NCBI RefSeq assembly: GCF_002104515.1
Contig: NZ_NBOE01000011.1
Span: forward strand, 62,001-126,000
Reading direction: 5' to 3'
DNA: 64,000 nucleotides
From: Colwellia polaris
GTDB taxonomy: Bacteria > Pseudomonadota > Gammaproteobacteria > Enterobacterales > Alteromonadaceae
Under the pieces are notes generated by a model, which saw only the letters and a program-made list of their open reading frames with translations, did not search any database and was not told where the DNA came from. Made by a program: the position numbers and the translations under genes. Below are positions 22,097 to 64,000 of this stretch, one piece after another; within the stretch, counting starts at the first letter, position 1; each line of letters begins with the position of its first letter.

Positions 22097-22124
22097 TTAT
22101 AACTTGCACATAAGAGAAGCAAAT

Positions 22125-22430: not shown

Positions 22431-22432
22431 CC

Positions 22433-24136: not shown

Positions 24137-24144
24137 GAAATTAC

Positions 24145-25414: not shown

Positions 25415-25448
25415 TAAAACAAATTTAAACATTCAAGAGATAGATAAA

Positions 25449-26745: not shown

Positions 26746-26754
26746 GTGAAAAAA

Positions 26755-30723: not shown

Positions 30724-30764
30724 GCAATTAACAAATTGAAATAGCAGTATTAATAACGAATAAA

Positions 30765-30792
30765 ATGGCGCTTATGTTAGCGCTATTTTTTT
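30765..30792 (+). terminator. Intrinsic terminator of the lipoprotein gene
   Basis: 8-base stem (atggcgct 30765-30772 with agcgctat 30779-30786, one G-T pair), 6-base loop, then seven T. Confidence 0.85.
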
Positions 30793-30878
30793 GTAAAAGT
30801 TTTAGCCAATAAAGTGAACAACTTATCGGCTTTGGTTATTTTAATGCGAAGTATCACTCATTATAAAAGGTAAACAAA

Positions 30879-31829
30879 ATGCTATCCCCTATTAAAAGCT
30901 TATTAAGCATTACGTTATTTTTAGCGTTAAGCGGACAAAATTACCTGCAGGCAGCAGAGATAAAAAACAGCCGAAACGAAGTTATTACACTTGATTCAAC
31001 AGCAAGGCCCGCTGATAACTTTGACTTATCTGACTGGAGCATCAGCTTACCCGTTGATACCAATAAAGATGGTATTGCTGACAACGTGCCCGAAACTTAC
31101 CTTGCTAAAGGCTTATCAATAAAACCCTTATTTTATACCGCCGAAGACGGTGGTATGGTTTTCACCGCGCCAATTCAAGGACCTAAAACCTCTAAAAACA
31201 CCAAATATACCCGCAGCGAATTAAGAGAAATGCTACGCAAAGGTGACTTAAGAGTTAAAACCAAAGGTATTACTGAAAATAACTGGGTATTTAGCACAGC
31301 AAAGCGCAATGTAAGAAAAAAATCAGGCGGAGTTGATGGCACCTTAGACGCCACTTTAGCAGTGAATCATGTCACCACTTCCGGCGACGACAAACAAGTG
31401 GGTAGAGTAATAATAGGCCAAATTCATGCCACAAAAGACGAACCCGTTCGCTTATATTATCGCAAGTTACCTCATAACGACAAAGGCGTAATATACATGG
31501 CACACGAACCATTAAAGGGCAAAGGCAAAGAACAGTGGTACAACCTTATTGGTTCTCGCGCTAGCAATGCAAAAAATCCTGAAGATGGCATTGCCCTAAA
31601 CGAAGTATTTAGTTATCGCATTAATGTTGAAGGTGACAAATTAACCGTTACCATTATTCGCCAAGGAAAAGCCAACATAGTACAAGAAGTAGATATGAGT
31701 AATAGCGGTTATGATAAAAGCGACCAATATATGTACTTTAAAGCTGGGGTTTATAATCAAAATAATACCGGTGAAGCTAACGACTACGTTCAAGCTACTT
31801 TTTACCAGTTAGAAAATAGTCATAACTAG
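30879..31829 (+). CDS. Alginate lyase, PL7 family, secreted
   Basis: 316 residues with a cleavable signal peptide (ending about LQAAEI) and a single PL7 domain starting near residue 45 (FDLSDWSISLPVD). The signatures are YTRSELREMLRKG, GQIHATKDE and YFKAGVYNQNN. It is a close relative of the catalytic half of the lyase at 26755 but lacks the binding domain and the lipid anchor, so it probably acts soluble in the periplasm or outside. The QIH motif is associated with lyases acting on guluronate-containing blocks. Confidence 0.92.
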   Translation: MLSPIKSLLSITLFLALSGQNYLQAAEIKNSRNEVITLDSTARPADNFDLSDWSISLPVDTNKDGIADNVPETYLAKGLSIKPLFYTAEDGGMVFTAPIQGPKTSKNTKYTRSELREMLRKGDLRVKTKGITENNWVFSTAKRNVRKKSGGVDGTLDATLAVNHVTTSGDDKQVGRVIIGQIHATKDEPVRLYYRKLPHNDKGVIYMAHEPLKGKGKEQWYNLIGSRASNAKNPEDGIALNEVFSYRINVEGDKLTVTIIRQGKANIVQEVDMSNSGYDKSDQYMYFKAGVYNQNNTGEANDYVQATFYQLENSHN

Positions 31830-38331: not shown

Positions 38332-38991
38332 CTAACGTTTTAAGTACTGATTAAAGTCAACATCGCTACACCCTAACACGACTTTAACGCGATTAGACGC
38401 ACCTAACTTCTTCAAAATTGAAGAAACATGTGACTTAACTGTAGTCTCAGAAATATGTAAATTAAAACCAATTTGTTTGTTTGCTTCGCCTTTAGTTAAA
38501 TGTTTTAACACAATTAATTCACGACGAGTAAGTAATGAGATGTTTTCTGGGGCAACTTGAAATTCTTTTTTTGTACTAGTGTCGTTAACTTGCGAGCGCA
38601 TAATATCTGAAGGCAAATAGACATTACCTTGAAATACACTGTCTATTGCTTCCCCAATAATATCTTTAGAAGAAGATTTGGAAATAAAGCCCACTGCGCC
38701 ATAAGAAATAGTTTGTAATATTTTCTGCTTTTCTTGCTCTGCTGATACGATTACAACAGGCGCTGTAGGGCATTCGTTACGAATATCTAGCAAACCATTA
38801 AGGCTCGACATGCCAGGCATATTCAAGTCTAAAAGTATTAAATCTATATCATCGTTTTCTTTCACAAATGCTAATGTTGACTCAACATCTTCCGTTTCAT
38901 AGGTCGTTGAACCAGGAAACTTTATGCCTATAATATTAACGATTGCATCTCTAAAAAGCGGATGATCATCTGCAACCAAAATTTTATACAT
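38332..38991 (-). CDS. LuxR-type response regulator, AgmR/ErbR-like
   Basis: 219 residues. Receiver domain with Asp8-Asp9, phospho-acceptor Asp55 (LILLDLNMPGM) and Lys in GFISKSS. The LuxR helix-turn-helix lies at about 150-210 (LTRRELIVLKHLTKGEANKQ). The wording ADDHPLFRDAI, VVIVSAEQEKQ and GNVYLPSDIM closely follows the Pseudomonas AgmR/ErbR/PedR1 regulators of PQQ ethanol oxidation as I know them. It sits at one end of the PQQ island, so it is a good candidate for its activator. Partner kinase not adjacent; the hybrid kinase at 58333 is a candidate. Confidence 0.88.
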   Translation of the reverse strand: MYKILVADDHPLFRDAIVNIIGIKFPGSTTYETEDVESTLAFVKENDDIDLILLDLNMPGMSSLNGLLDIRNECPTAPVVIVSAEQEKQKILQTISYGAVGFISKSSSKDIIGEAIDSVFQGNVYLPSDIMRSQVNDTSTKKEFQVAPENISLLTRRELIVLKHLTKGEANKQIGFNLHISETTVKSHVSSILKKLGASNRVKVVLGCSDVDFNQYLKR

Positions 38992-42112: not shown

Positions 42113-42177
42113 TAAAATTAATAACTAAAATTGATAGTTAAAATTGATAGTTAAAATTGATAGTTAAAATTGATAGT
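42113..42177. repeat. 13-base tandem repeat across the TonB receptor stop codon
   Basis: Unit taaaattgatagt occurs four times without error (42126-42177) plus one degenerate copy (42113-42125). The last copy on the plus strand encodes the receptor's C-terminal residues; the others lie beyond its stop. Confidence 0.95.
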
Positions 42178-44503
42178 TAATGCTAATACTTGCTGATCGC
42201 GGTCTAGATGGACCAACAAAGTATTCATCAAATTCCGTGTCAGGATAAATTTCCTCTAACACTTCATCTGCCTCACCGTAAGTGCCAAAAGTTTCAAACT
42301 TACGATCAAAAAGGTTATCAACTTTCGCTGACAAGCGCAGTTGTTGGGTTATCTGATAATTAACATAAATATTAGTCACTGCGTATGATGGAATTTTTTT
42401 ATTCTCATTCGCTTCATCGCCACGATAATATGATGAAGATGCATACAACATCTCAGTACCTATATTTAGTGCATCATTAAGTTGCCAATTAGCATGAAAC
42501 TTTACTTGATGCTGTGGTTGGCCAGGAATATTGTCACCCACTTCAACTTGTCTGTTTGCGCCTAAAGGATTTACGGGGCTAAAAGAGACAAAAGGCGATT
42601 CAAAAGTGGCTTTTAAATAGTTATAACTTGCGCCTAAATCAATCGAGTTTACTTGGGTAGAGGCAGCCAATTCAACACCTTGTCGTTGCGTTTTATCAAG
42701 GTTGATAAAATAACCTTGGTTTGATTTATTACCCGCTTGTTGAAATATTATGTCTTCATAACTCATGGTTGAAAACACCGTTGCTAAAGCAGAAAAGTTA
42801 TCGTTTTCAAACTGTAAAGCTGCTTCAACTGTTTTCGCCACCACTTGCTCAAGTGGCGGATCGGCAACAAACGCATTCGGCAATTTACAGGGATCTTCTT
42901 CATCTGCACAACTTAGCTCAGCTGGGCTAGGAGCACGTGATGATTCGCTATAACTTAGCTTAAAGGTATATTCAGGCGTTAAGCGGTAGTTAACTGAAAC
43001 TGCGGGGTTAAAACGGTTAAAATAGTGTTCGCCATTCAGTGAACCTGGCCCGGTTTCAATCTGGTCTTGCATACTTATGTGAGTACGATTATATCGACCA
43101 GCAAGGTTAACGATTAAATCGTCTCCAATGACTAAAGTATTTAAGAAGTAAAAATAATGCTGTTTATTACTCACCTCTAACTGAACACGAGACTCCATAT
43201 CGAATAAGCCAATGCCCGTTACTGAACGATCATCAGTAATAGTATCGTTATGCAGCACAGCGAATTCGGTATCACTTCTAAAGCTGATATCTGCTTTATC
43301 AATGCCAAGCCCAAAAATAAATTCGTTATCTAATGCTGCATGCACATCGGTTGCATCAAAATGACTGGCTCGTACCCATTGCAAAGCCACACCGTAACTT
43401 TCGTTATCAGTAAAGCCAGTATTATAAGTACCATCAACGTCATCAGCATCAATATCGCTTAGCTCACTTAACCAAGTGTCTTCATCAAAGCCAACAAACT
43501 GCACGCGCTCTAACTCATCGTTTTCATCTTCTTCACACAAACTATAAAGCGCACCAGACTCACACTCTTCATAATCGCTGTCGTCACCATTTATACTGTT
43601 AATTTTATTTTTACGATAATAAACATTACCCTGCCACGACATTTGCTCGTTAATAACACTGTCAGATTTAATACTGAATTGCTGAAATCTGGTATGAGTT
43701 TTATCAGGTTGAGTGTAAATGGCACTTCTTCCTGCTAATTCGGCTAGTACTTCAGGCACAGCGCCATTTCCCAGTAATTGGTTATTATTCGCAGAGTAAG
43801 TAAAATCAATAGAACGGTCTTCATCAACATAACTCAGTGTTGCTAAAAATTGCTTTAATTCACTTTCAGAATAGTCTCGCCAGCCATCTTCTTGGTATTG
43901 GTTAGCAATGATGTAATAGCCCCAGTTGCCATTATTGCCACCTGATTGCACGGTAAATTGTTGTTGCCCAAAACTACCAAAGCGCGCTTCAAGCTCATGC
44001 TTGGTATAACTAAAGCCATTTTTAGTCGTTAGTGCTAGCGCCCCACCTAAAGTATTTTGCCCAAAAGCAGGATTTGAACCAGAGAATAACGCCACCTTAT
44101 CAAGCGCAGCAAGCGGAATTAAATCCCAGTTTACCGTGTCGCCAAAGGGTTCATTGAATCGCACCCCATTAAGATAAACAGAAATCCCCTGAGGTAAGCC
44201 TAATAATGGCGAAGCAGTGAAGCCACGGTATTGGACATCAGGCTGAAAAGGATTGTTTTGTATGTCATTAATATGCAAGCTTGTTAGCTTGTTTTTCATG
44301 TGTTCAGCTAACGAAATAGCTTGAGATTGTGCTAACGACTGTTCGTTAATTGTTTGTACACTGCCAAAGGTGCTTTCTTCAGCTAAGTCATTGGTGGAAA
44401 GCGGTGTTTGTCCATATATACTAATATTTTCAACACCGTTCATTTCGTTCCCTAAAGCAGGGAGTGCAGTACAAATAAATAAAAAAGTTAACGTCCGTTT
44501 CAT
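42164..44503 (-). CDS. TonB-dependent receptor with acidic loops, LutH-like candidate
   Basis: About 779 residues from ATG 44503 (MKRTLTFLFICTALPALG); the frame is open to 44536 but the signal peptide favours the later start. The plug contains GISVYLNGVRFNEPFGDTVN and GSNPAFGQNTLGGAL, wording that I associate with receptors found with PQQ/lanthanide gene sets. The barrel ends SINYQF. One loop near residues 310-355 is extremely acidic (DDSDYEECESG, CEEDENDELE, SELSDIDADDVDG), as is the last loop (EADEVLEEIYPDTEFDEYF). Its place beside the Ped-type ABC genes suggests uptake of a lanthanide chelate; this is inference. Confidence 0.85.
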   Translation of the reverse strand: MKRTLTFLFICTALPALGNEMNGVENISIYGQTPLSTNDLAEESTFGSVQTINEQSLAQSQAISLAEHMKNKLTSLHINDIQNNPFQPDVQYRGFTASPLLGLPQGISVYLNGVRFNEPFGDTVNWDLIPLAALDKVALFSGSNPAFGQNTLGGALALTTKNGFSYTKHELEARFGSFGQQQFTVQSGGNNGNWGYYIIANQYQEDGWRDYSESELKQFLATLSYVDEDRSIDFTYSANNNQLLGNGAVPEVLAELAGRSAIYTQPDKTHTRFQQFSIKSDSVINEQMSWQGNVYYRKNKINSINGDDSDYEECESGALYSLCEEDENDELERVQFVGFDEDTWLSELSDIDADDVDGTYNTGFTDNESYGVALQWVRASHFDATDVHAALDNEFIFGLGIDKADISFRSDTEFAVLHNDTITDDRSVTGIGLFDMESRVQLEVSNKQHYFYFLNTLVIGDDLIVNLAGRYNRTHISMQDQIETGPGSLNGEHYFNRFNPAVSVNYRLTPEYTFKLSYSESSRAPSPAELSCADEEDPCKLPNAFVADPPLEQVVAKTVEAALQFENDNFSALATVFSTMSYEDIIFQQAGNKSNQGYFINLDKTQRQGVELAASTQVNSIDLGASYNYLKATFESPFVSFSPVNPLGANRQVEVGDNIPGQPQHQVKFHANWQLNDALNIGTEMLYASSSYYRGDEANENKKIPSYAVTNIYVNYQITQQLRLSAKVDNLFDRKFETFGTYGEADEVLEEIYPDTEFDEYFVGPSRPRSASISINYQF

Positions 44504-44739
44504 AGCAACTCTCAAAGTAAAATGAAGAGCTGTCAATGTAACCTGATGACTAAATTAATCAATCCCCCGCTTAGAAAAGCAGAATCTAATAAATACAAAT
44601 AAAACATATATAATCAGTAACTTAAAACTATTTCATTCAGGTTTTATCCTGCTAAAGTATGACTAATTTACTTCCCTGTGTTTATACTCATATCACGAAT
44701 AAATACGTCAACTTATGCTTTCTATTCAACTTCATACCA

Positions 44740-45706: not shown

Positions 45707-46489
45707 TTACTTACGCCCAAGCTTTGGCTTAAAACTCATCAGTGCAAAAAATGATGCGATACTTGTAGCAATTAACACCGTTAACAATGCGGAAAAATTT
45801 AATTGCCCATAAAGTGCGAATCGTAACAACTCAACACACGCAGTGAATGGGTTAAACTCGCAAATCCAATATAACCAAATGCTCGCTTCTTTCATCTTCC
45901 ACAGTGGATACAATGCACTGGACAGAAAAAACATCGGGAAAATAACAAAGTTCATCACGCCAGCAAAGTTCTCTAATTGTTTTATCAAATTAGATAACAT
46001 TAACCCGAGTGCGCCTAGAAAAAATGCAATTAAGAAAATAGCGGGTATTGCACTTAAATAACCTAAAAGTGGAATATCTACATCGACTAACTGGGCAAAA
46101 AGCAAAAAAATAACGACTTGTAAAAGTGATAACAAAGCACTGGCAATTAATTTGCAGCACAATAAATAAGGCCGAGGTAATGGGCTCATTAATAGCACTT
46201 TCATACTGCCCATTTCGCGGTCATAAACCATTGAAAGCGAACTTTGCATGCCGTTAAATAAAATGATCATGCAGCAAAGACCAGGAGTGATATATTGCTG
46301 ATAAGTAATATAGGTGCCATAAGGTTCCATTATCGACACCCCTAAAGCCGCCCTAAACCCTGCTGCAAATACTACTAACCATAATAGAGGCCTAACCAGT
46401 GCGCTAAGTAAACGGGAACGTTGTTGAAAAAAACGTAAAACTTCACGTTTAACAATGCCATTAAAACAATACAGATATTGGCTGCCCAT
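45707..46489 (-). CDS. ABC-2 type permease of the PQQ-associated (Ped/Lut) ABC system
   Basis: 260 residues, six hydrophobic segments, ABC-2 permease pattern (YDREMGSMKVLLMSPLPRP, a loop typical of this family). It corresponds to one of the PedA1/PedA2 pair in Pseudomonas putida, which is needed for lanthanide-dependent growth, and to LutF in Methylobacterium. Its ATG overlaps the stop of the ATPase gene by one base, so they are translated together. Confidence 0.88.
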   Translation of the reverse strand: MGSQYLYCFNGIVKREVLRFFQQRSRLLSALVRPLLWLVVFAAGFRAALGVSIMEPYGTYITYQQYITPGLCCMIILFNGMQSSLSMVYDREMGSMKVLLMSPLPRPYLLCCKLIASALLSLLQVVIFLLFAQLVDVDIPLLGYLSAIPAIFLIAFFLGALGLMLSNLIKQLENFAGVMNFVIFPMFFLSSALYPLWKMKEASIWLYWICEFNPFTACVELLRFALYGQLNFSALLTVLIATSIASFFALMSFKPKLGRK

Positions 46490-47217
46490 TAGATAAGCTC
46501 CGAACTAGTGGTTAGTCGACGATACAGTTGATATATGTCGTCAACGTTATTTTCCTTACATAGTTCACTACTTACGCCCTGTGCGGTAATTTTTCCTTCG
46601 TTAATTAATATAAGTTGATCATTCTCTGCTATTTCGTCAATTAAATGAGTTGCCCATAACACGCAAATATTTAAATCTTTGCAGAGTTTACCCACATATT
46701 CGGTGATCATTTTTCTACTATCAATATCTAAACCTACGGTAGCTTCATCAAGCAGTAATACTTTGGGTTGATGAATTAATGCACGGGCAATTTCAACTCG
46801 ACGTCTATGCCCGCCATTTAGCGAACGCACTTTGTCATTAAGCCGTTGCGTTAATTGCAATTGCGCTAATATATCGCTGATATTATTCAGTGCTTGCGAT
46901 GCTGAAATACCATGCAGCGCGGCATAATAAACTAAATTTTGTTTTACAGATAAATCTAAATCAAGTGTACTTTGCTGAAAAACCACGCCCATTGAACGCA
47001 TGATTTTAGGACGATTTTCTTTAAGGTCAAAACCATTAATATTAACGCTACCTGAAGTTGCTTGAGAAAGGCCTGTTAACATTAAAAACAAGGTGCTTTT
47101 TCCTGCGCCATTTGGCCCAAGCAACACGTTAAAACCACGGTTAATATTCAAGCTTAAATTATCAATTGCCGTTTTTTTACCGTAATGAAAACTCAGCTGA
47201 TTAGTCACTATGCTCAT
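46489..47217 (-). CDS. ABC transporter ATPase of the PQQ-associated system
   Basis: About 242 residues from ATG 47217, which overlaps the upstream stop as ATGA. Walker A is LGPNGAGKSTLF, the signature is LNGGHRRRVEIARAL (LNGGH instead of LSGGQ), Walker B is KVLLLDEATVGLD and the switch histidine is in WATHLIDE. It matches the PQQ-dependent catabolism-associated ATPase family (TIGR03864 type). It powers the adjacent permease. Confidence 0.92.
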   Translation of the reverse strand: MSIVTNQLSFHYGKKTAIDNLSLNINRGFNVLLGPNGAGKSTLFLMLTGLSQATSGSVNINGFDLKENRPKIMRSMGVVFQQSTLDLDLSVKQNLVYYAALHGISASQALNNISDILAQLQLTQRLNDKVRSLNGGHRRRVEIARALIHQPKVLLLDEATVGLDIDSRKMITEYVGKLCKDLNICVLWATHLIDEIAENDQLILINEGKITAQGVSSELCKENNVDDIYQLYRRLTTSSELI

Positions 47218-48194
47218 GGCACGTTTCGTATTACTACGCCCCACGGGTAACGCCCTACTTTAATAGATTTAGTCACCTTCATTGCTTTAACATCAATCAC
47301 CGAAACATCACCACTGATGCCATTAGTAGTTAACAATTGGCTTTGATCATCGTTAAACGCCAATTGCCAAACACGGCGACCAACTAACAAATATTTATCA
47401 ACTTCCATGGTTTTACGGTCAATAACCGCTACATGATTTGCCGGGCCAAGCGCCACAAAAGCAAAGCGACCATCGCTTGATAACTCTACCCCCACCGGTT
47501 GAACTCGATCACGGTGTATACCCCGAATAGCAAAGGTAAACTCTTTAACAATCTCTTGTGTGTTTACATCAAGCACCACCACTGCCCCACCAATCTCAGA
47601 GCTAACCCATAAAAACTTTCCGTCGTCAGTAAATTTAGCCGAGCGAGGTCTAGCACCCACTAACGTGTTGGCAAAGTTGGTATTATTTTCAGTGTGTATC
47701 CAATGCACCATATTGGTGGTTTCTGAGGTAACCACAACAATTTTTCCATCAGGACTCACCGCTAACCCCTCAGGCTCAACACCAACATCAATTTGAGCAA
47801 TAACCGTTGCGGTTTCTATATCAATCACGGTAAGCAGTGCATCGTCTTCATTGGAGGTATAAATTATTTTACCATTTGGGTGTAATGCGATGGTTTCAGG
47901 GTCTTCACCTGAAGGTAACTCACCAACAATTTGCTCGGTATTAAGATCTAAAATTTGAATTCGGTCTGACTCGCTGGCACAAATGTAGGCCAAGGAATGT
48001 TGCTTATTAAAAATAATACCGCGCGGTCGCTCGCCAACTGGTATGGTTTTAATGACTTTATTTTGGCTTAAATCAATTACTGAAATATTATCGTCTTTCT
48101 CATTCGTAACATAAGCAAATTCAGTGGCATAACTCGTATTGATATGCAAAGCAGCGGCGAAGAAAAATAAGCTAGCAAGGGTTAAATTTTTCAT
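47214..48194 (-). CDS. pedB: PQQ-associated periplasmic YVTN beta-propeller protein (PedB/LutD-like)
   Basis: 326 residues with signal peptide (FFFAAALHINTSYA). Seven YVTN-type blades are visible, such as NKVIKTIPVGERPRGI, GELPSGEDPETIALHPNG and AQIDVGVEPEGLAVSPDG. This matches the beta-propeller family fixed to PQQ-linked ABC transporters (TIGR03866 type). It is 15 bases behind the binding-protein gene and overlaps the ATPase by four. The likely role is a periplasmic partner of the transporter; the ligand is unproven. Confidence 0.88.
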   Translation of the reverse strand: MKNLTLASLFFFAAALHINTSYATEFAYVTNEKDDNISVIDLSQNKVIKTIPVGERPRGIIFNKQHSLAYICASESDRIQILDLNTEQIVGELPSGEDPETIALHPNGKIIYTSNEDDALLTVIDIETATVIAQIDVGVEPEGLAVSPDGKIVVVTSETTNMVHWIHTENNTNFANTLVGARPRSAKFTDDGKFLWVSSEIGGAVVVLDVNTQEIVKEFTFAIRGIHRDRVQPVGVELSSDGRFAFVALGPANHVAVIDRKTMEVDKYLLVGRRVWQLAFNDDQSQLLTTNGISGDVSVIDVKAMKVTKSIKVGRYPWGVVIRNVP

Positions 48195-48209: not shown

Positions 48210-49463
48210 TTATTTACAGTGAGATTCTTGAGCATCAAAGCCAAGCGTATCAAGTTCAGTGACGGGATGTAACATACCCGGCTGAGGTGATTGCGACACC
48301 AAAGCATGAGGATGCACCAAAGAAAGTGGCATTCTTAATTGTCGGTTCCAAGACCTAAAGCTTAACTTACGGCCTTTGTATGCCGCGAGTTCAAACTTAT
48401 CTGAGCTAATATATTCTTTAAGCTTTTCACTATCTTTAGAGTGCAGTTTATGTACTGATTGGGCAATACTACGGACAGCTAAATATGCCGAAAAGTCGGT
48501 TTCATTCATTGCACGACTAGCTAAATCCGTAAAGCGATTTTGTAACTGCGTTGCGCCCCACTGTTCAATTGCACCATGCCAAGCTAACGCTTCTAAGCCA
48601 GCTGAGCCAATAACAGGTCGCGGTAAATAGGTATTGAAAGGGATAAACTCAGCAAATTCTTTGCTTTTATCTGCAACATAAACGGCATCATAATCTTGCA
48701 CTGTTTGGGTAAATAATGGAATTTCTTGCTGAGTGCTGCGCCTAAGGTCGGTATTAAAATCCCATTGTTTTTTGTCAATAATTTTTATGCCAAATCGTTT
48801 TGCTGAGCGTATAAAGGAATGCGCCAATTGAATATCTTCTGCTTTATTGCCTTGTACTAATAACACCTTATTCATACGACGATGTAATAGCCACTGAGCA
48901 AGCGCGTCAGACTTCATCGCGTTACTAACACTGGTATGAAACACCTTAGCTAAACACTGAGTAGAGCGTAATTCATCTGACGACTCGCTCACATTAAAAA
49001 GTAGCAGTGATTTGTTTTTCGCCCACTTATCAACTTTAACTAACTCAGTTAGGGGGGCGTCAAGAATAAAAATTTGTTGCCCTTGTAGATATTTCGCATC
49101 TAAATAACGTAAAAAATCATCGCTTTTCGCCGTACTAAAATTGCTTAATGTAAAATGCTGCTTTAAAAACTTACCAGTAGTATTCGAATCATTTATCGCA
49201 AGTTCAGCCCCCATATAGCCACTATCTTCTGGTATTTTGAAAATATTCAGCACATTGCTAGCTTGTTGTTGATCAAACTTAACATAGCTAATTTGTAACG
49301 TAATGGGCTGGGGTTGCGCTAGAGTTGTTAAGCAAATTAGCGACAAACCAATAGCAAAAAATTGCTTCTTAGCACTTATATTTACTATCGCAGACAGTGA
49401 CTGGGTAAATATGAACACGGTAAAAATAACAATTAAAAACATGGTGAACTCAAACATTAGCAA
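48210..49463 (-). CDS. pedC: PQQ-associated ABC substrate-binding protein (PedC-like)
   Basis: 417 residues of the branched-chain amino-acid-binding fold as found in the PQQ alcohol dehydrogenase set (TIGR03863 type): ISYVKFDQQQA, GAELAINDSNTTGKFL and YDAVYVADKSKEF. The N-terminus is odd: a hydrophobic stretch (FLIVIFTVFIF) precedes a second one that looks like the true signal peptide (KKQFFAIGLSLICLTTLAQ), with no start codon between them. It heads a four-gene unit (binding protein, propeller, ATPase, permease) divergent from the cytochrome gene. Confidence 0.85.
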   Translation of the reverse strand: MLMFEFTMFLIVIFTVFIFTQSLSAIVNISAKKQFFAIGLSLICLTTLAQPQPITLQISYVKFDQQQASNVLNIFKIPEDSGYMGAELAINDSNTTGKFLKQHFTLSNFSTAKSDDFLRYLDAKYLQGQQIFILDAPLTELVKVDKWAKNKSLLLFNVSESSDELRSTQCLAKVFHTSVSNAMKSDALAQWLLHRRMNKVLLVQGNKAEDIQLAHSFIRSAKRFGIKIIDKKQWDFNTDLRRSTQQEIPLFTQTVQDYDAVYVADKSKEFAEFIPFNTYLPRPVIGSAGLEALAWHGAIEQWGATQLQNRFTDLASRAMNETDFSAYLAVRSIAQSVHKLHSKDSEKLKEYISSDKFELAAYKGRKLSFRSWNRQLRMPLSLVHPHALVSQSPQPGMLHPVTELDTLGFDAQESHCK

Positions 49464-49750: not shown

Positions 49751-50191
49751 ATGATAAAACTTAATAAAGGCCGCTGCTATTTAATTGCATTGATAGCAAT
49801 TTGCTCATTCGGTATTGCGGCTCATGGCCCAGTTACACCGCAATCAATTGATACCTCAACATTACCAACGTTAGGTGAAGAGTGGAGTGATACTAACCCG
49901 TATCGCGAATCTGAAGGTGATACCCGCAAAGAGATTTTACGTGTTGGCGCTTCAGCGTATAACCAAAATTGTGCGCGCTGCCATGGCTTAGAAGGAATTT
50001 CAGGTGGTATTGCTCCCGATTTACGGGAGCTTGCCAGCGATTATGACGGTGATGAATGGTATGTGTATCGAGTGCAAAATGGTGCAGTTCGTAATGGCGC
50101 AGTTTATATGCCGAAAATGACAGAGCATTTAAACCAAGAAGCACTTTGGTCTATTCGTACATGGTTAGAGTCTGTCAGTGAAAAAAAGTAA
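49751..50191 (+). CDS. pedF: Cytochrome c-550, PedF-like
   Basis: 146-residue periplasmic c-type cytochrome with a signal peptide (ends near IAAHG). The haem site is Cys74-Ala-Arg-Cys77-His78 and a likely axial Met is in YMPKMTEHL. The segment SYN-like SAYNQNCARCHGLEGISGG and the APDLREL follow-up match cytochromes that accept electrons from PQQ ethanol dehydrogenases. It overlaps the next gene by 14 bases, so the two are coupled. Confidence 0.9.
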   Translation: MIKLNKGRCYLIALIAICSFGIAAHGPVTPQSIDTSTLPTLGEEWSDTNPYRESEGDTRKEILRVGASAYNQNCARCHGLEGISGGIAPDLRELASDYDGDEWYVYRVQNGAVRNGAVYMPKMTEHLNQEALWSIRTWLESVSEKK

Positions 50192-51080
50192 CTTTAACGC
50201 GTTAATTTTTTGGCTAAGTTGTTGTAGCATTTTTTGCTCAACAGCTTTTGCTCGATCCTATGATGACATTATTGAAAGTAATGAAATTGTAGTAGCGGTA
50301 TATCGAGACTATATCCCATTTTCGTATCAGGAAAATGGCGAAGCTAAAGGTATTGACGTTGTTATAGCTAAACATATTGCCAAAAAATTAGGGGTAAAGC
50401 TTCGTTTTAGGTGGGTAACTGCCGATGAAAACGTCGAAGGCGATTTACGCAATAACCTCTGGAAAGGCCACTTTCTAAAACGCACAGTCGCCGACTTAAT
50501 GCTACGCGTGCCATACGACAAAGCATATTCTCTTCTGCGTGATGATATTGGCGAGCTGGTGCATGAACAAGTACACATGTTCGCGCCCTACCATACTGAA
50601 TCTTGGAAAATAGCCTTCAATAATCAGAAAATTGAAGATGTTAGCACCATGGCAGTATTTCAATATCACGACATTGGTGTAGAAGTAGATTCTATTCCTC
50701 AGTTTTACTTAATGTCAGTTTTTAATGGGCGAATGAGTAAAAGAGCCAAACAATTTAACACTGTGGAATCGGCTTTTACTGCTATGCATGAGCAAAAAAT
50801 TGATGCGGTAATGGGGTTAAGAAGCCAAATAAGTTATTACCAGCACCAACTCTCCTCGCCAAATTATCAATTAGCGTCAAATGCCTTTCCTAATATTGGT
50901 AAACAACAATGGGATATTGGCATGGCGGTTAAAAGTGACTATCGCCAACTAGGTTATGCGGTTGCCGATATTGTAGAAGCTATGATTGCATCGGGAGAAA
51001 TTAAAAAAATATTCGAAGATCATTACGCAATATATCAACTGCCTGCATTGTACTCAGTTGCTATGGAGCAACCTCAATAG
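50178..51080 (+). CDS. Quinoprotein-associated periplasmic binding protein (MxaJ/XoxJ-like)
   Basis: 300 residues from GTG 50178 inside the end of the cytochrome gene. Signal peptide (CSTAFA), then a type 3 solute-binding fold: IVVAVYRDYIPFSYQENGE and GIDVVIAKHIAKKLGVKL. This family (TIGR03871 type) accompanies methanol and ethanol quinoproteins. XoxJ relatives bind and help activate the dehydrogenase rather than import a solute. It corresponds to the gene in the PedG position. Confidence 0.87.
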   Translation: MKKSNFNALIFWLSCCSIFCSTAFARSYDDIIESNEIVVAVYRDYIPFSYQENGEAKGIDVVIAKHIAKKLGVKLRFRWVTADENVEGDLRNNLWKGHFLKRTVADLMLRVPYDKAYSLLRDDIGELVHEQVHMFAPYHTESWKIAFNNQKIEDVSTMAVFQYHDIGVEVDSIPQFYLMSVFNGRMSKRAKQFNTVESAFTAMHEQKIDAVMGLRSQISYYQHQLSSPNYQLASNAFPNIGKQQWDIGMAVKSDYRQLGYAVADIVEAMIASGEIKKIFEDHYAIYQLPALYSVAMEQPQ

Positions 51081-51292: not shown

Positions 51293-53056
51293 ATGATAAC
51301 AGCAGGTAAAAATAAAATATTGTCATTATCTATTGCTATGTCTTTAACGTTTACAGGCCTAGCAAACGCAGGTGTAACCGATAAAGACATTGCCAATGAT
51401 CAAATGACAACTAATGACGTAGTAACCTACGGACTTGGCCTAAAAGGTCAGCGTTACAGTCCACTTGATAAAATAAATACCGAAACAGTTAAGCAAATGC
51501 ATCCGGTTTGGTCTTTTTCATTAGGCGGCGAAAAACAACGTGGTCAAGAATCTCAACCTATGGTGAAAGACGGCGTTATGTATATCACTGGTTCATACTC
51601 ACGTGTGTATGCAATTGATGTAAATACGGGTGACGAACTTTGGCAATACGATGCAAGACTACCCGATGGCATTATGCCATGTTGTGATGTTATTAACCGT
51701 GGCGTGGCATTATTCGATGATCTAGTTATTTTTGGTACGCTTGATGCGAAACTTGTCGCATTGCATAAAGACACAGGTAAAGTCGTTTGGAAAAAGAAAG
51801 TAGAAGACTACAAAGCCGGTTATTCAATTACCGCCGCGCCTATTATAGTTAAAGGTAAGGTCATTACAGGTGTTGCCGGTGGTGAATTTGGTGTTGTAGG
51901 TAAAGTAAGAGCTTACGATGCTAAAAATGGTAAATTAGTTTGGGAACGTCCAACTGTTGAAGGCCACATGGGCTACATTTGGAAAAACGGCAAAAAAATG
52001 GACAATGGCATTTCTGGCGGTAAGCCAGGACAAACTTGGCCAGCAGAGCTTTGGAAATCAGGTGGTGCTGCGCCTTGGTTAGGTGGTACTTATGATGCTG
52101 ACGTTGATTTGCTTTTCTTTGGCACAGGTAACCCAGCACCTTGGAACTCTCATTTACGACCAGGCGATAACCTTTTCTCATCTTCACGTTTAGCTATCGA
52201 CCCAGATACCGGTAAAATTGTATGGCACTTTCAAACAACGCCGCATGATGGTTGGGATTTTGATGGCGTAAACGAACTTATCTCTTTCGATTATAAAGAA
52301 AAAGGTAAAACCATAAAAGCTGCGGCTACAGCCGACAGAAACGGATTCTTTTACGTACTTAATCGTGAAAATGGTGACTTTATACGTGGTTTCCCATTTG
52401 CAGATAAAATTACTTGGGCTTCAGGACTAACTGATGAGGGTCGTCCAATCTATGTTGATAGCAACAGACCTGGTGATCCTAGTAAATCAAAAGACGGTAA
52501 TAAAGGTAGTACTGTTGTTTCAGCGCCAGCCTTCTTAGGTGCCAAAAACTGGATGCCAATGGCTTACAGCCAAGATACAGAATTATTTTATGTGCCTGCA
52601 AACGAATGGCAAATGGATATTTGGAATGAGCCTACTGCCTATAAAAAAGGTGCAGCATACTTAGGTGCTGGTTTTACCATAAAAGCCATTAATGAAGACT
52701 ACATTGGTGTGCTAAAAGCAATCGACCCTAAAACGGGTAAAGTTATTTGGCGCTACAATAACTACGCACCTTTATGGGGTGGTGTTTTAGTAACTGCAGG
52801 TAACTTAGTATTTACCGGTACACCAGAAGGCTATTTATTAGGCCTTGACGCTAAAACAGGTGAAGTAAAATATAAATTTAATACAGGCTCAGGCATTGTA
52901 GGCTCACCTATTACCTGGGAAATGGATGGCGAACAATACTTGTCAGTACTTTCTGGTTGGGGTGGCGCAGTTCCTTTATGGGGCGGCGACGTTGCAGAAC
53001 GTATTAAGCACTTTAACCAAGGTGGTAGTGTTTGGACCTTTAAATTACCTAAGTAA
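51293..53056 (+). CDS. PQQ-dependent alcohol dehydrogenase, lanthanide type predicted
   Basis: 587-residue periplasmic quinoprotein with an eight-bladed propeller, signal peptide ending about LANAG. It oxidises alcohols to aldehydes using PQQ. Visible active-site features are the vicinal disulfide Cys130-Cys131 (MPCCDV), metal ligand Glu198 (GGEFG), Asn280 (GTGNPAPWN) and the catalytic Asp322 in [10 protein letters not shown]. Asp324, two residues on, is the extra aspartate found in lanthanide enzymes (XoxF, ExaF, PedH); calcium enzymes have Ala or Ser there. The neighbours supply the cytochrome, chaperone-like protein and aldehyde dehydrogenase. Ribosome site agaggaa. Confidence 0.93.
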
Positions 53057-53390: not shown

Positions 53391-54911
53391 ATGATCTATT
53401 CAAACCCAGGCAGTGAAGGTTCTGTTGTTTCTTTTAAACCTAAATATGAAAACTTTATCAATGGTCAGTGGGTAGCTCCTGTTAAGGGAAATTATTTTAC
53501 CAACACTACCCCTGTTACTGGTGAAGTTATTTGTGAAATTCCTCGTTCAAGCAGCGAAGATATTGAATTAGCCCTTGATGCAGCTCATGGCGCTAAAGAA
53601 GCTTGGGGCAAAACATCAGTTCAAGACCGCTCTAGAGTGCTCCTGAAAATTGCTGACCGTATTGAAGAAAACCTTGAGAAAATTGCCGTTGCTGAAACAT
53701 GGGATAACGGTAAGCCAGTGCGCGAAACGCTTGCGGCTGATATTCCATTATGTGCTGATCACTTTCGCTACTTTGCCGGCTGTATTCGTTCACAAGAAGG
53801 TTCTCTTTCGCAAATAGATAACGAGACTGTTGCTTATCATTTTCATGAGCCAATTGGTGTTGTTGGTCAAATAATTCCTTGGAATTTCCCAATATTAATG
53901 GCGGCATGGAAGCTTGCGCCTGCACTTGCTGCTGGTAACTGTGTAATTTTAAAACCTGCTGAGCAAACACCGGTCAGTATTTTAGTCTTAATGGACATTA
54001 TTGCTGACTTACTTCCGCCAGGCGTTTTAAACATAGTCAATGGTTTTGGTAAAGAAGCCGGTGAAGCACTAGCTACAAGCACACGCATTGGTAAAATCGC
54101 CTTCACAGGCTCTACCGCAATTGGTGGACACATTCTTAAATGTGCCGCTGAAAATCTTATTCCATCAACGGTAGAACTTGGTGGTAAATCACCGAATATT
54201 TTCTTTAAAGACATAACACAATTTGAAGATGACTACTTAGAAAAGTGTGCTGAAGGTTTTGTTTTAGGCTTCTTTAACCAAGGTGAGGTTTGTACTTGTC
54301 CGTCTCGAGCCTTAATCCAAGAAGATATTTTCGACGAATTTATGGAAAAAGTCATCGAAAAAGCGAACAAAATTATTCGCGGCAACCCACTCGATACTGA
54401 AACTATGGTGGGTGCTCAAGCATCTCAAGAGCAATTTGAGAAAATCATGAGCTACCTAACTATTGGTAAAGATGAAGGTGCTGAGCTTTTAACTGGCGGC
54501 AATAAAGAAAGCTTAGGCGATTCACTTGATACGGGTTACTACATCCAACCTACTATTTTAAAAGGTAATAACAAAATGCGCATCTTCCAAGAAGAAATTT
54601 TTGGACCGGTTGTTGCAGTAACTACCTTTAAAGATGAAGCCGAAGCATTAGCCATAGCTAACGATTCAGTTTACGGTTTAGGCGCGGGTTTATGGACACG
54701 TGACGCCAACCTTGCACACCGAGTTGGACGTGGTATTGAAGCGGGTCGAGTATGGACTAACTGTTACCATTTATACCCAGCTCACGCAGCATTTGGTGGT
54801 TATAAAAAATCAGGTATCGGTCGTGAAAACCATAAAATGATGCTTGATCATTATCAGCAAACTAAAAACTTATTAGTAAGCTATAGCACGAGTCCTTTAG
54901 GTTTCTTTTAA
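53391..54911 (+). CDS. exaC: NAD-dependent aldehyde dehydrogenase, ExaC/PedI type
   Basis: 506 residues, acetaldehyde dehydrogenase II branch. Conserved elements are [14 protein letters not shown] (Asn), [11 protein letters not shown] (Glu) and catalytic Cys301 in [11 protein letters not shown]. The [22 protein letters not shown]-terminus is typical of ExaC-type enzymes. It converts the aldehyde made by the quinoprotein into the acid. The gene follows the alcohol dehydrogenase, separated by a terminator, so it is probably a separate transcript. Confidence 0.93.
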
Positions 54912-57191: not shown

Positions 57192-58340
57192 ATGCATGAA
57201 ATAAAAACAGTTACGGCAGTTAGTAAAGCAATAGACCCTGCCATTGCAAGCCTTGAACTATATCAACAATTAAATAAAGCGAACATCAGCTTCGTGCTTT
57301 TCTATTGCTCCTCTACTTATGCGCTAGACACACTAGCACAAAGTATGGAAAGCGCCTTTACCGATGTTGATATTGTCGGATGTACTACCGCTGGCGAAGT
57401 CACAAACCAAGGTTACGAGCAGCATTCCATAGTTGCTATCGGATTTTCCAGCCAATACTTTGCTATTTGCGCTACATTAATAGAGTCGATGGAAAAATTC
57501 GACACCATCAATGCTCAGTCAACCATTAATGAGTTAGTTGAAAGCTGCCAGTCGAAAGAGTTAACAGAGATAAAAAATAACAGTTTCTTACTCACCTTAC
57601 TCGATGGCCTTTCTTCAAGCGAAGAACAGTTTTTAGTTACCTTAAACTCTGCTGCTAGAGCTATTCCGCATTTTGGTGGTTCGGCGGGCGACGACATAAA
57701 TTTAACTAAGACTCATGTTTATTATCACGGAAAATTTTATCGAAACGCTGCAATTGTTATTATGGTTAACACCATTTTGCCATTTGAAGTTTTTACCTGT
57801 CACCACATCAAGCGACCAATAGAAAAACTCGTGGTTACCGATGCTGACGCAGCCAACAGAACGGTGTACGAATTAAACGCCGAGCCTGCAGCATTAGAGT
57901 ATGCAAAATTACTCAATATTGACCTGAAAGATTTAAGCCCAGAAGTATTTTCGCTTAATCCATTAGCGGTTAAAGTCGGCGGTGACTACTATATTCGTTC
58001 TATTCAAAAAGTGAATGAAGCAGATTTAAGCTTAACATTTTACTGCGCAGTAGATGTTGGTATTGTGCTAACAGCCGTAGAAATGGGCGATATATTTTCC
58101 CCTGTAACAGACAAACTTGGTGAAATTTCACAACGCTATGGTGCCCCTGAATTAGTCCTCACCTGTGATTGCTTTTTAAGGCGGCTTGAAATTGAACAAA
58201 AAGGCTTAGAATCGCGAGTAAGACGTTTAAATGCCCAATACAACATTGTTGGTTTTAATACCTACGGCGAACATACGAATGGTATTCACTTAAACCAAAC
58301 TTTTACCGGCGTTTTCATCGCTGGAGGCGACAATGAGTGA
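57192..58340 (+). CDS. FIST-domain sensor protein
   Basis: 382 residues with FIST N (about 25-215: FTDVDIVGCTTAGEV, IPHFGGSAGDD) and FIST C domains (to about 370). FIST proteins are cytoplasmic sensory modules thought to bind small ligands and to feed histidine kinases. The gene overlaps the hybrid kinase by 8 bases, so the two proteins are made together. A FIST gene next to an ErcS'-like kinase is a known arrangement in PQQ ethanol oxidation regulation in pseudomonads. Confidence 0.9.
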   Translation: MHEIKTVTAVSKAIDPAIASLELYQQLNKANISFVLFYCSSTYALDTLAQSMESAFTDVDIVGCTTAGEVTNQGYEQHSIVAIGFSSQYFAICATLIESMEKFDTINAQSTINELVESCQSKELTEIKNNSFLLTLLDGLSSSEEQFLVTLNSAARAIPHFGGSAGDDINLTKTHVYYHGKFYRNAAIVIMVNTILPFEVFTCHHIKRPIEKLVVTDADAANRTVYELNAEPAALEYAKLLNIDLKDLSPEVFSLNPLAVKVGGDYYIRSIQKVNEADLSLTFYCAVDVGIVLTAVEMGDIFSPVTDKLGEISQRYGAPELVLTCDCFLRRLEIEQKGLESRVRRLNAQYNIVGFNTYGEHTNGIHLNQTFTGVFIAGGDNE

Positions 58341-60897
58341 GCAAGCTTTAAAAGATGAGTTGGCTTTGCTAAAACATCAAAATGCTAAACTTATTAAAAT
58401 TAACAATGCTTTAATGCAACGTGTTGAAGACAGTGGCGAAAATCAATATGCCCCCTACACCGCTTTTGAACATTCTGTGCACTTAGCTGAACAAGTAAGA
58501 GAAAAAACGCAAACACTGAATGAAACACTCGCAAAATTAGAGTCGAGTAACCGAGCATTAAAACAAGCAAATGATACTGCCAACTTATTTAAACAACGCT
58601 TTATAGATGCGATTGAAAGCATTACAGAAGCCTTTGTTTTACTCGATAACGATGGCAGAATTATTCTTCAAAACAGTAACTTTGCCAGCTTTTGGAGTGA
58701 TTCTGGCTTACCTATTGTTGAAGGTGCAAACCTTAATGACTTAAAAGAGTTAGCTAAAACACGTGGCATTATTCGTCGAGCATCACCGGGGGATAGTTTT
58801 GCCAGCCCCGTATATCAGCTATCAGACGACCGTTGGTTCCAACTCAACGAACATCGCACCAGCGAAGGTGGTTGGGTAATGCTTTATACCGATATTACTG
58901 CCATTAAAAATGCAGAAAGCGCCCGATACGAGCGTGGCATGGCGCAAAAGTCTTTGTTACTGCAAAACTTAATTGATAACCTTTCACAAGGTGTGGTTTT
59001 GATTAGCAGCCAAAACAAAATTGAAGTATGGAATATGCGGTTTGCACAAATTAGTCAATTATCGCCAAACCTTTTACGGGCAATGCCCAACACCAATAAT
59101 GTGCAAAACTTAACCGAGCTTGATCTCGCACCAAAATCTAGTACAGATAACTATTATTATACCCAAACGCTAATGAATGGAACGGTTTTAGAAATACGAG
59201 ATCATCGTTTAAATAATGGCAAAATCATCAAAACCTACAGCGATATTACCGAACGTCATCGCTATGCAGAATCGTTAAGAAAAAGTGAAAGTTGGCTGCG
59301 ATTAATTACTGATAATGTGCCCGCGATGATCGCCTACATAGGCGAAGATCTAAAATATCAGTTTACTAACCAAGTGTATGTTGACTGGTATGGTTTGCCG
59401 CAAGGCGGACTTAATGGTTTGGAGCTTGAACAAAGTCGTGTGCATACTAATTTCACTGAATTAAAATCTTATGTTGATCGCGCTTTAAAAGGTGAAAGTG
59501 TCAGCTTTGCCATGGAAGAGAAAAACAAAAAAGGTGAGCCTTGCTACCTTTTAAAATCTTATGTGCCTAATCGCGACAATAAAGGCCATGTTCTTGGGTT
59601 TTTCGTGCTTATTCGCGACATTACCGCACGTAGAAAAGATGCCCTTGCGCTGCAAAAAGCTCATGATCAACTTGAAATTAGAGTGCAAGAAAGAACGGTT
59701 CAACTGCAAGGGTTAAACGATAAGTTAATTGTTGAAGTAGCTGAGCGCAGCCAGGCACAAGCGAATTTACATAAAGCCAAAAGTGAAGCTGAGTTTGCCA
59801 ACAGCACCAAAACAAAATTTTTAGCTGCTGTTAGCCATGACCTATTACAACCCTTAAATGCGGCGCAGTTATTTACCAGTTCTTTAATGGAAAAAACGTT
59901 AGAAACTCATACCAAAAAGTTGCTCGGCTCTGTGTCTAATTCATTAGACGATTTAGAGAATTTAATTTGTACCTTGGTGGATATTTCAAAACTAGATGCT
60001 GGTGTGGTAAAAGCTGATAAAAGCTCATTTAAATTATCAGAATTACTGAACAATCTAGCCAGTGAATACCAACAAACCAGTGAACAATTTAAAGTAAAGT
60101 TACACTATGTTAGTAGCGATCTTGTGGTTAATTCTGACAGCGTATTATTAGCGCGTATTTTACGTAACTTTCTTTCTAATGCCTTTAGGTATGCAAATAA
60201 TGGCAAAGTATTGCTTGGGTGTAGACGCCAAGGAGATCATGTTTCAATCCAAGTATGGGACAACGGAATGGGTATTGCCCAAGACCAGCTTCAAGAGATA
60301 TTTAAGGAGTTTAAACGTCTTAAATCGTCTCAATCAGCGTTTCGTAACGGCCTAGGCTTAGGGCTTGCCATTGTCGATAAAATTTCAACCGTATTAGAGC
60401 AACCTATTATGGTTAATTCTACCTTAGGTAAAGGCTCAGTTTTTTCGGTAAAAGTGCCCTTAGGTAAATTAAGTGACTTACCTCAAACCATAAACCCTCA
60501 AAATTACGTCCTTGATAATACGGCTTTAGCTAAGCGTAAAATATGGATTATTGATAATGATACGACCGTTTGTGCCGGTATGGCTGAGTTATTAGGCGGC
60601 TGGGATTTTATTGTAACCACCGCAACTAGCTTGAAACATTTGCAAGAACAAGTGAATGTGGCAGATGACCATGCAGACATACTCATTGTGGATTACCATC
60701 TTGACGACGGCGTTAATGGTTTAGACGTTTCAACCGAGATAAACAGCTTACGCGATAATGAACTGCCGGTAATTATGATCACCGCTAATTACAGTAAAGA
60801 GTTAAAGAACGAGGTTAAAGCTAACGATATTCTATTACTTAACAAGCCAGTAAAACCGATGAAATTAAAAACCTCAATGCTGTACTTGTTGAAATAA
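58333..60897 (+). CDS. PAS-containing hybrid histidine kinase (NahK/ErcS'-like)
   Basis: 854 residues, no obvious membrane segment. Order: coiled coil (1-85), three PAS regions (about 93-190, 212-300, 318-435), coiled coil, HisKA with His502 (AAVSHDLLQPLNA), HATPase (NFLSNAFRYANNGKV, DNGMGIAQD, GLGLGLAIV) and a C-terminal receiver with Asp787 (ILIVDYHLDDG). The overall build and the SHDLLQPLNAA box match NahK/ErcS' kinases. It is coupled to the FIST gene and could act, directly or by a phosphorelay, on the AgmR-like regulator at 38332. Confidence 0.9.
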   Translation: MSEQALKDELALLKHQNAKLIKINNALMQRVEDSGENQYAPYTAFEHSVHLAEQVREKTQTLNETLAKLESSNRALKQANDTANLFKQRFIDAIESITEAFVLLDNDGRIILQNSNFASFWSDSGLPIVEGANLNDLKELAKTRGIIRRASPGDSFASPVYQLSDDRWFQLNEHRTSEGGWVMLYTDITAIKNAESARYERGMAQKSLLLQNLIDNLSQGVVLISSQNKIEVWNMRFAQISQLSPNLLRAMPNTNNVQNLTELDLAPKSSTDNYYYTQTLMNGTVLEIRDHRLNNGKIIKTYSDITERHRYAESLRKSESWLRLITDNVPAMIAYIGEDLKYQFTNQVYVDWYGLPQGGLNGLELEQSRVHTNFTELKSYVDRALKGESVSFAMEEKNKKGEPCYLLKSYVPNRDNKGHVLGFFVLIRDITARRKDALALQKAHDQLEIRVQERTVQLQGLNDKLIVEVAERSQAQANLHKAKSEAEFANSTKTKFLAAVSHDLLQPLNAAQLFTSSLMEKTLETHTKKLLGSVSNSLDDLENLICTLVDISKLDAGVVKADKSSFKLSELLNNLASEYQQTSEQFKVKLHYVSSDLVVNSDSVLLARILRNFLSNAFRYANNGKVLLGCRRQGDHVSIQVWDNGMGIAQDQLQEIFKEFKRLKSSQSAFRNGLGLGLAIVDKISTVLEQPIMVNSTLGKGSVFSVKVPLGKLSDLPQTINPQNYVLDNTALAKRKIWIIDNDTTVCAGMAELLGGWDFIVTTATSLKHLQEQVNVADDHADILIVDYHLDDGVNGLDVSTEINSLRDNELPVIMITANYSKELKNEVKANDILLLNKPVKPMKLKTSMLYLLK

Positions 60898-62124: not shown

Positions 62125-63792
62125 CTAATCCTTAGCTATTCTTTGTAAATAGCCAACAATATTTTCAGGGCTTAAATCAGCAACATTACGGTTTGTTACT
62201 TGATGAACCCTGCCGTACTTTATTTTAGCCAGTGCTAGGCTCTGGCTAATAAAAGCCATATCTTCACTTAAGGTCAACAAGCATGGTGAAATTGTATTTA
62301 TTTGCTCGACTGGGGCTACGTCAAAAGCGCTATAAATAGCAAGATAAGCTGAGTCTTCAATGGTTAATGCTTGTATGGCATAACAAAAGCCTTCACACCT
62401 TCGTGCTATAAATGCGGGATAAGCACTCAATATATAACTGGTGATATTGGCAATAGCTTGTTCTTTTTTGCTAATTTTTATCAACCATAAGGCGTTATGC
62501 TGATCGTAAACACTTACCGCTTTAGTGTGATTCTTTTGGTGTTCGTTCTGACTTAACTCTTTGCTAGTTAAGTTTTTATTAGCTGAGTGATTTAATACAA
62601 ACTGTTGTTTTGCTTTTAGGCAAAGCGAAGTGAATAGTTTAGGTAATGGCTGACTTGCTGACTCGGCTTTACTTCTTTTAACTGGGCTAGTAACAGCACT
62701 ACTGCCAACACTAATCTCAGCACTAGTATCAAATGTTTGCTCAGCATTAACCGCATCACTAATTTTATCAGCCAAAGATACAAGTGGTGCAATTACCCCT
62801 GCTTTAGCTGTTTGAGCTGCTTTTTCTATTTGAATTATTTTAGACTTGGGCTTTAGTTTGAGATTGAGTTTGGATTCGGCTTTCACCTGCCCTTTAATAT
62901 CAACGGTCAACGTTTCATTTTCAACACTTTTATATTGTTCAAAACGTAAGTCATTTGGCGTGTTCAACGTTAAATAATAAGCATTTATAAGCGTGTTAAT
63001 TGCTGGGGAATATTTTGCTTGGTAACGCTCAGTTTCGTTATTATCACCACGATTTTTACTGGTTTTTTTTATCTCGGCGTTAGCTTTATTTTTTAACGAA
63101 TGGTTTTGGTTATTTTGTGCTTGGCTAGCTTGTGCTTGGCTAGCTTGCACAGATAAGCGCGAAATTAGCGTTGATATGTTTTCAATATCGGCATTAGCGG
63201 TAACTAACGTAATATTGCTGGCTTGATAAAAACCTTGATGAAAAGCCCTAATTTCTTTAAGTGTTAAGTCGCCAATAGTACTGCTGACACCACCATAATT
63301 AAACTCACCTTCTATCTCGCTTGTTTCGCTTATTTCTTTTTTTTCTTTTATTTCGTTGTTGCTCTTGGTGTGCTCTATACCAATAAGTTCACGATAAATA
63401 ACGCCTTTATCTTTGCCATCATAAACTTCACCGTTTAAGTACTCTTCATTGAACACCGGTGAAAATAAGCCATTTAATAAATACTCTACAACTAAGTTAA
63501 AGGTACTTTTACATTGGCTTTGGCAATGGAAATAAGTGGTATCAGCAAACGTAGAAGCATTAATTTTTGCATCAGTAAGCGCAGTGAGTTGAAATAAAGT
63601 TTCAGGATTTTCAAAAGCTAAACTGCGACGAAAAATACCATGTTCAACACCATGTGCTACGCCGCTATTATCAAATATTGGCGTGTTAACCACAAATAAG
63701 GCGCTATAGCCCTCATTATTAATGATATTGACCTGCTTTAAACCATTTTCATGGCGATACAATTTATCAATCAAGGCTGCATCTACGCTCAT
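62125..63792 (-). CDS. pqqF: M16 peptidase-like protein, PqqF-type candidate
   Basis: 555 residues. The inverted zinc motif is His47-GVE50-His51 with a distal Glu135 in GVIYRELIG, as in M16 (insulinase) peptidases. Residues about 215-370 are low-complexity and rich in Lys, Asn, Gln and Ala, with a 15-base tandem repeat (ASQAQ units), an unusual insertion. It is shorter than known PqqF (about 760). Its ATG overlaps the stop of pqqE (ATGA). In PQQ synthesis an M16 protease cuts the PqqA peptide; this is the probable role. It might instead need a partner for the missing half. Confidence 0.8.
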
Positions 63793-64000
63793 ACTTTTAC
63801 GGTAACAATATTTAACTCAGCATTTTTAGCATGTTTCATCGCCGTACTTTGGTTAATGCGATCAACAATAGCTTTAGAAGGTTTTATTGCGCTCTCGATA
63901 GCTTGTTGAATAAGATGATGATCTTCAGACTTACTACAAACAGGATCAGTTTTGTGCATGTCGCCTGTCATCATAAAGGCCTGACAACGACAACCGCCAA
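63789..64000 (-). CDS. pqqE: PqqE, C-terminal end (cut by window edge)
   Basis: The reading frame enters from the right edge and ends at 63789. It carries [20 protein letters not shown], the conserved C-terminal cysteine segment of PqqE, the radical SAM enzyme that links Glu and Tyr of PqqA in the first step of PQQ synthesis. Only about 70 residues are in the window. An internal ATG at 63974 is not the real start. The rest of the pqq operon is expected further right on this strand. Confidence 0.88.

Follow-up and report, generated by a model that had tools for sequence, protein, structure and literature searches.

Background

The best-described relative of the enzyme studied here is PedH of Pseudomonas putida. 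PedH showed no activity under conditions optimised for the calcium enzyme PedE, whereas La, Ce, Pr, Nd, Sm, Gd or Tb each supported activity, and it bound lanthanides with a Kd of 25-75 nM (PMC5487730). In P. putida lacking PedA1A2BC, about 100-fold more La was required for PedH-dependent growth (PMC6839425). The ped cluster of this organism also holds homologues of NosP (PP_2663) and of the kinase (pedS1), and the Cys pair mentioned below is described in the same source (PMC12997753). For the ocean, the excerpted part of a further study reports the lanthanide motif in 61% of 6,328 PQQ dehydrogenases, the calcium motif in 12.5% and neither in 26.5%, and gives seawater concentrations of around 1e-2 M for calcium and around 1e-11 M for lanthanides. 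It also describes metal heterogeneity inside ADH type 2b and suggests possible promiscuity for GDH enzymes carrying this lanthanide motif, which belong to another family (PMC11996626). Clusters combining NapH-like flavinylation with an ExaA-type alcohol oxidase have been reported from 172 genomes, with a proposed transfer of electrons to the respiratory chain, according to the excerpted text of PMC8238504.

Judged by title, literature searches returned nothing relevant on lanthanides in combination with Colwellia or on the PQQ alcohol dehydrogenase of Alteromonas in combination with lanthanides, and nothing on a lanthanide-dependent ethanol dehydrogenase in Gammaproteobacteria and Vibrio. Among the matches listed, nothing relevant joined NosR with lanthanides, and in PMC10979944 NosR appears solely among the references. 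Here, a ped-type locus of Colwellia polaris is described. The term window denotes the whole stretch of 64,000 nucleotides that was analysed.

Results

The features of the locus are collected in Table 1. An earlier note on this DNA had pointed to a PQQ alcohol dehydrogenase (PQQ-ADH) with an additional Asp two residues after the catalytic one, and its motif and open reading frame coordinates proved to be exact. The segment [10 protein letters not shown] of the protein includes D322 (codon 52256-52258) and D324 (codon 52262-52264, both on the plus strand), which form the arrangement D322-x-D324. By eye, the N terminus resembles a signal peptide. In a phmmer search against solved structures, 6ZCV (E 8.6e-297, far beyond a chance match) and 6ZCW (E 4.8e-295) were the best matches, followed by ExaA (1FLG, E 1.9e-198) and then by XoxF and other quinoproteins. 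6ZCW is PedH according to the excerpted part of PMC11996626. A pairwise alignment with 6ZCV showed 409 identical positions, corresponding to about 71%, and the protein belongs to the quinoprotein methanol/ethanol dehydrogenase family by NCBIfam TIGR03075 (788 bits, cut-off 480.05). The aligned columns further contain E198, N280 and the Cys pair C130-C131; the first two were picked by us and are presumed to be metal-site columns. Judged by its sequence, the enzyme is of a known kind, namely a PedH/ExaF-type lanthanide ethanol dehydrogenase (PQQ-ADH type 2b).

Table 1. Coordinates of the locus features within the window, with the model or alignment on which each description is based
Feature	Position	Strand	Basis
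TonB-dependent receptor, weakly PqqU/YncD-like	42164..44536	-	6v81 E 3.1e-18
ABC permease PedC	45707..46489	-	TIGR03861 480.2 bits, cut-off 241.35
ABC ATPase, PQQ-ADH system, PedB-like	46489..47244	-	TIGR03864 347.1 bits, cut-off 302.25
Beta-propeller protein, same PQQ-ADH system, PedA2-like	47214..48194	-	TIGR03866 514.4 bits, cut-off 287.3
ABC substrate-binding protein, PQQ-ADH system, PedA1-like	48210..49463	-	TIGR03863 484.9 bits, cut-off 413.6
PedF-type cytochrome c550	49751..50191	+	TIGR04494 188.8 bits, cut-off 122
Periplasmic substrate-binding protein, PedG position	50178..51080	+	SBP_bac_3
PedH-type PQQ alcohol dehydrogenase	51293..53056	+	587 aa, ATG start, intact ORF
W321-D322-F323-D324 codons, D-x-D lanthanide signature	52253..52264	+	Motif alignment, tree alignment
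ExaC/PedI-type aldehyde dehydrogenase	53391..54911	+	NF050026 961.8 bits, cut-off 900
NosR-like membrane protein, 712 aa	55014..57152	+	FMN_bind and Fer4_5 domains
NosP, nitric-oxide-sensing FIST protein	57192..58340	+	NF041558 563.2 bits, cut-off 450
NahK/ErcS-like hybrid histidine kinase	58333..60897	+	NF041832 525.1 bits, cut-off 400
pqqE end	63789..64000	-	pqqE, D, C, B above cut-off

The motif position was surveyed in an alignment of the window protein with homologues from 80 genome loci, the best 80 of at least 589 confirmed relatives, and from genomes of the same family; the tree also included plasmid records. Asp occupied the second motif position in all of these best 80 loci and in all 51 PedH-type homologues that cover the motif in a sample of 395 genomes of the host's family, in which one additional genome carries a PedH fragment without the motif region. 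Paralogues that share about 50-57% identity with the window protein have Ser at this position, and 22 more distant family genes comprised 16 with Thr, four with Ala and two with Asp. In a quick tree of 73 rows, built with the diagnostic motif column left out, the window protein was placed among 40 Asp rows that form one clade (SH-aLRT 99), adjoined by a clade of 17 Ser rows (SH-aLRT 100), and XoxF- and MxaF-type rows stood apart. The type-organism enzymes PedE, PedH and ExaF are no rows of this tree, and its clades were anchored via the best solved matches: ExaA 1FLG (1221 bits) for a row of the Ser clade, 6ZCV (849 bits) for a row of the Asp clade from an alphaproteobacterium, 1LRW for the MxaF rows and 6OC5 for the XoxF rows. 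Long branches among the outgroups and one join involving the Ser-clade branch were flagged. A placement of the enzyme with the calcium enzymes ExaA and PedE was rejected, as the 17 Ser rows form a clade of their own with the window protein outside it. The tree groups the protein with the all-Asp PedH clade, of which it is an orthologous member. In addition to PedH, two genomes of the family sample (G331 and G382) encode another D-x-D quinoprotein type, which has WDWDE and lacks the Cys pair at the aligned columns.

The earlier note had also remarked that the window holds no calcium-type paralogue, and this extends to the genome as searched (4.43 Mb in 28 contigs, rated 100% complete). A protein search of the whole genome found no second PQQ-ADH, and with TIGR03075 only the gene at 51293-53056 scored above the cut-off. 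In both searches, the other matches were confined to a 406-aa frame on contig C1, whose length and weak score suggest BamB. A PF13360 search returned PedH, the C1 frame and one weak match below the cut-off on contig C6 (E 0.004). Other alcohol dehydrogenase domains are present in the genome, with three Fe-ADH matches over the cut-off and nine ADH_N matches, and alcohol oxidation may thus proceed without lanthanides as well.

Within the genus, the gene was found in four of 17 sampled genomes, Colwellia polaris included, and the other matches in these four were weak and BamB-like; one of the 13 genomes in which PedH is absent is 66% complete. In the family sample, 51 of the 395 genomes carry a motif-bearing PedH-type gene, and one more carries the fragment mentioned above. 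Of these 51, six have a Ser-type gene as well, 12 have a gene of the Ser, Thr or Ala type and two have a second Asp type. PedH was the only PQQ-ADH found in 38 of the 51, given that up to three candidates were scored per genome and extra copies could escape; in three of these 38, a weaker match was taken for the glucose-dehydrogenase type. An Asp-type enzyme as the sole PQQ-ADH is therefore not exceptional. In a sample of 394 genomes of the order, nine had a match at 1e-60, and eight of these matches are PedH-type with at least 78% identity. Two of these PedH-type genomes hold further genes: G113 a Ser-type-like match at 55% and another match at 37%, and G537 a second gene at 41% with the Asp motif. 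Among the best 80 of at least 589 loci, a Ser-type gene lies within the flanks of 28, including loci from Pseudomonas, Stutzerimonas, Marinobacter, Neptuniibacter and others; no such neighbour was found in the flanks of those named Colwellia or Alteromonas.

The gene content around the enzyme corresponds to a ped cluster. All four PedA1A2BC-type genes lie beside the PQQ-ADH gene and each scores above its family cut-off, with a presumptive A1/A2 assignment of the PedA1-like gene. Among the best 80 of at least 589 loci, the PedF-type gene and the gene at the PedG position were each found in 73, the ExaC/PedI-type gene in 41, and the transporter genes PedC, PedA2 and PedA1 in 38, 40 and 41, respectively. 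That the transporter genes appear in only about half of these loci is partly due to some flanks being short. The hybrid histidine kinase also matches NF041831 (NahK/ErcS') with 981.3 bits, below the cut-off of 1500. The genes pqqE, D, C and B, together with a PqqA-like peptide bearing an E-x-x-x-Y motif, span window coordinates 63789-67175, mostly beyond the window end. The gene at 62125-63792 is a weak PqqF match (18.5 bits, cut-off 320), and a LuxR-type regulator at 38332-38991 reaches 149 bits with the ErdR model, below its cut-off of 390. The TonB-dependent receptor falls far short of the PqqU equivalog, the specific model nearest to it (111 bits against 1200), and a homologue occurs near pedH in six of the best 80 of at least 589 loci; it is a possible candidate for the outer-membrane step. 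Elsewhere in the window, a urease gene cluster that comprises structural as well as accessory genes (20810-26060, plus strand) and two alginate-lyase-like secreted proteins flanking a protein with a long repeated part (26746-31829, plus strand) were recognised by eye from the list of open reading frames.

The NosR-like gene is located between the aldehyde dehydrogenase gene and the NosP gene. Its product fails the NosR equivalog model, with 611.9 bits against a cut-off of 1000. A role in nitrous oxide reduction was considered and is unsupported: the TIGR04244 model of NosZ found no match in the genome, yet none of 14 control genomes passed its cut-off either. Homologues above 600 bits, a line set after the scores had been seen and equivalent to at least 45% identity over nearly the whole length, were present in all 52 PedH genomes of the family sample (the 51 and the one with the fragment) and in none of the 343 others, with up to two candidates scored per genome and with counts that come from genomes related to one another, for which a Fisher test gives no fair probability. 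One genome without PedH, assembled in 920 contigs, contains a 226-residue NosR-like fragment (49%) and a further piece (29%), which probably represent a single broken-up distant copy; counting this fragment, the gene occurs in one of the 343 genomes without PedH. Full-length homologues at 34-41% exist in genomes both with and without PedH. The distance to pedH is within 6 kb in 32 of the 52 genomes and 15.9-22.6 kb in 14, and in six the gene is on another contig. Two genomes (G283 and G293) have a second NosR-like copy (46%) about 1 kb from a Ser-type alcohol dehydrogenase gene. The NosR-like gene may therefore be linked to PQQ alcohol dehydrogenases in general rather than to lanthanides.

Discussion

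Taken as a whole, the locus is best explained, with high confidence, as encoding a PedH orthologue that would act as an exported lanthanide-dependent PQQ enzyme together with a ped electron chain and transporter. In such a system, a light lanthanide would be held between PQQ and E198, N280, D322 and D324, with D324 providing an extra charge for the 3+ ion at the position occupied by Ser, Ala or Thr in calcium enzymes. Short alcohols and aldehydes are the predicted substrates. Electrons would pass from PQQ to the PedF cytochrome c550 and perhaps also to the NosR-like flavin and iron-sulphur protein, and the aldehyde product would be oxidised further by the ExaC-type dehydrogenase. PQQ would be supplied by the neighbouring pqq genes, and the PedA1A2BC-type transporter would gather the metal at low concentration. 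This same function is suggested by the site residues and transporter families shared with the PedH system. The organism presumably lives in seawater, judging from its nearest named relatives (Colwellia). Since the lanthanide concentration of seawater lies below the Kd of PedH, some concentrating step would be needed.

The lanthanide type proposed in the earlier note is supported by the motif, by the position outside the Ser clade and by the closeness to PedH, and the enzyme is very probably lanthanide-dependent. Because of the metal heterogeneity reported for type 2b in the excerpt of PMC11996626, the D-x-D motif is strong evidence but not proof. Further cautions are the suggested promiscuity of GDH enzymes, although these lie in another family, and the occurrence of the transporter genes near pedH in only about half of the best 80 of at least 589 loci, in part owing to short flanks. 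The reported heterogeneity would also fit a promiscuous enzyme that binds lanthanides best and uses calcium in vivo. In seawater, calcium exceeds the lanthanides about a billion-fold by the concentrations given in that excerpt, and a calcium paralogue that could serve as a fallback was not found in the genome. This alternative is nevertheless considered very unlikely, as the enzyme shares about 71% of its residues and the same site residues with PedH, which in the excerpted report was inactive under the calcium conditions of PedE and bound lanthanides in the nanomolar range (PMC5487730), and as all four PedA1A2BC-type genes adjoin the enzyme gene. A different question is whether a lanthanide-type enzyme is needed at all, or whether it is a dispensable side route, with NAD-linked or iron-type alcohol dehydrogenases serving when lanthanides are missing. 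The Fe-ADH and ADH_N matches speak for this, as does the absence of PedH from 13 of the 17 genus genomes, a count that includes the genome studied here among the 17 and a 66% complete one among the 13. These domains span many functions, however, and the ped genes are kept together in one cluster. A side route is given slightly less than an even chance. The reliance on lanthanides suggested in the earlier note is confined here to the PQQ-dependent route and may not extend to all alcohol oxidation.

The role of the NosR-like protein is less certain. Its co-occurrence with PedH across the family sample and its location no more than 6 kb from pedH in 32 of the 52 suggest, tentatively and with more doubt than confidence, that this putatively flavinylated iron-sulphur protein provides a family-wide dedicated membrane route from PedH to the respiratory chain, besides cytochrome c550. 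The association is partly known already from the survey of NapH-like systems with ExaA-type oxidases (PMC8238504). It is also quite conceivable, if somewhat short of an even chance, that the gene is unrelated to alcohol oxidation and merely travels in the same region. The copies at 15.9-22.6 kb or on another contig fit this, and they indicate that the gene is not always an operon partner. Likewise, no NosR-like gene was found in the flanks of 62 of the best 80 of at least 589 loci, although flanks of up to 10 kb could miss it, and these 62 include all 28 loci with a Ser-type neighbour. A mere passenger is harder to reconcile with the presence of homologues above 600 bits in every PedH genome of the family sample and in none of its 343 others, with the genome's lack of a match to the NosZ model (which none of the 14 controls passed), and with the 172 genomes that combine NapH-like flavinylation with an ExaA-type oxidase in the excerpted survey. 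As a possible electron route, the NosR-like partner is concrete and testable, and it is the point most worth further work. Since the only PQQ-ADH found is of the lanthanide type, the organism also offers a clean test, with no calcium backup or switch, of the need for rare earths during growth on alcohols at seawater levels in a bacterium whose relatives are marine.

Compared with known systems, the locus is closest to that of P. putida KT2440, with which it shares a PedH (6ZCV, 6ZCW) of about 71% identity with the D-x-D motif, site columns and Cys pair, as well as PedF, a PedI-type aldehyde dehydrogenase and PedA1A2BC-type genes. In contrast to P. putida, no PedE was found in the genome and hence no calcium partner for a rare-earth switch, whereas a NosR-like gene is part of the cluster and the pqq genes lie nearby. 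ExaA of Pseudomonas aeruginosa (1FLG) and PedE belong to the same group of quinoprotein ethanol dehydrogenases, but they carry Ser instead of Asp at the metal position and fall into a separate clade. The methanol dehydrogenases XoxF and MxaF share the superfamily, and the XoxF rows also the D-x-D motif, but they are distant (best XoxF chain E 7.4e-108) and likewise form a separate clade. In the NapH-like/ExaA systems, too, a membrane protein, there NapH-like and flavinylated, is associated with an alcohol oxidase; the word lanthanide is absent from the main text of PMC8238504, whereas in the locus described here the alcohol-oxidising partner is of the Asp type and cytochrome c550 occurs as well.
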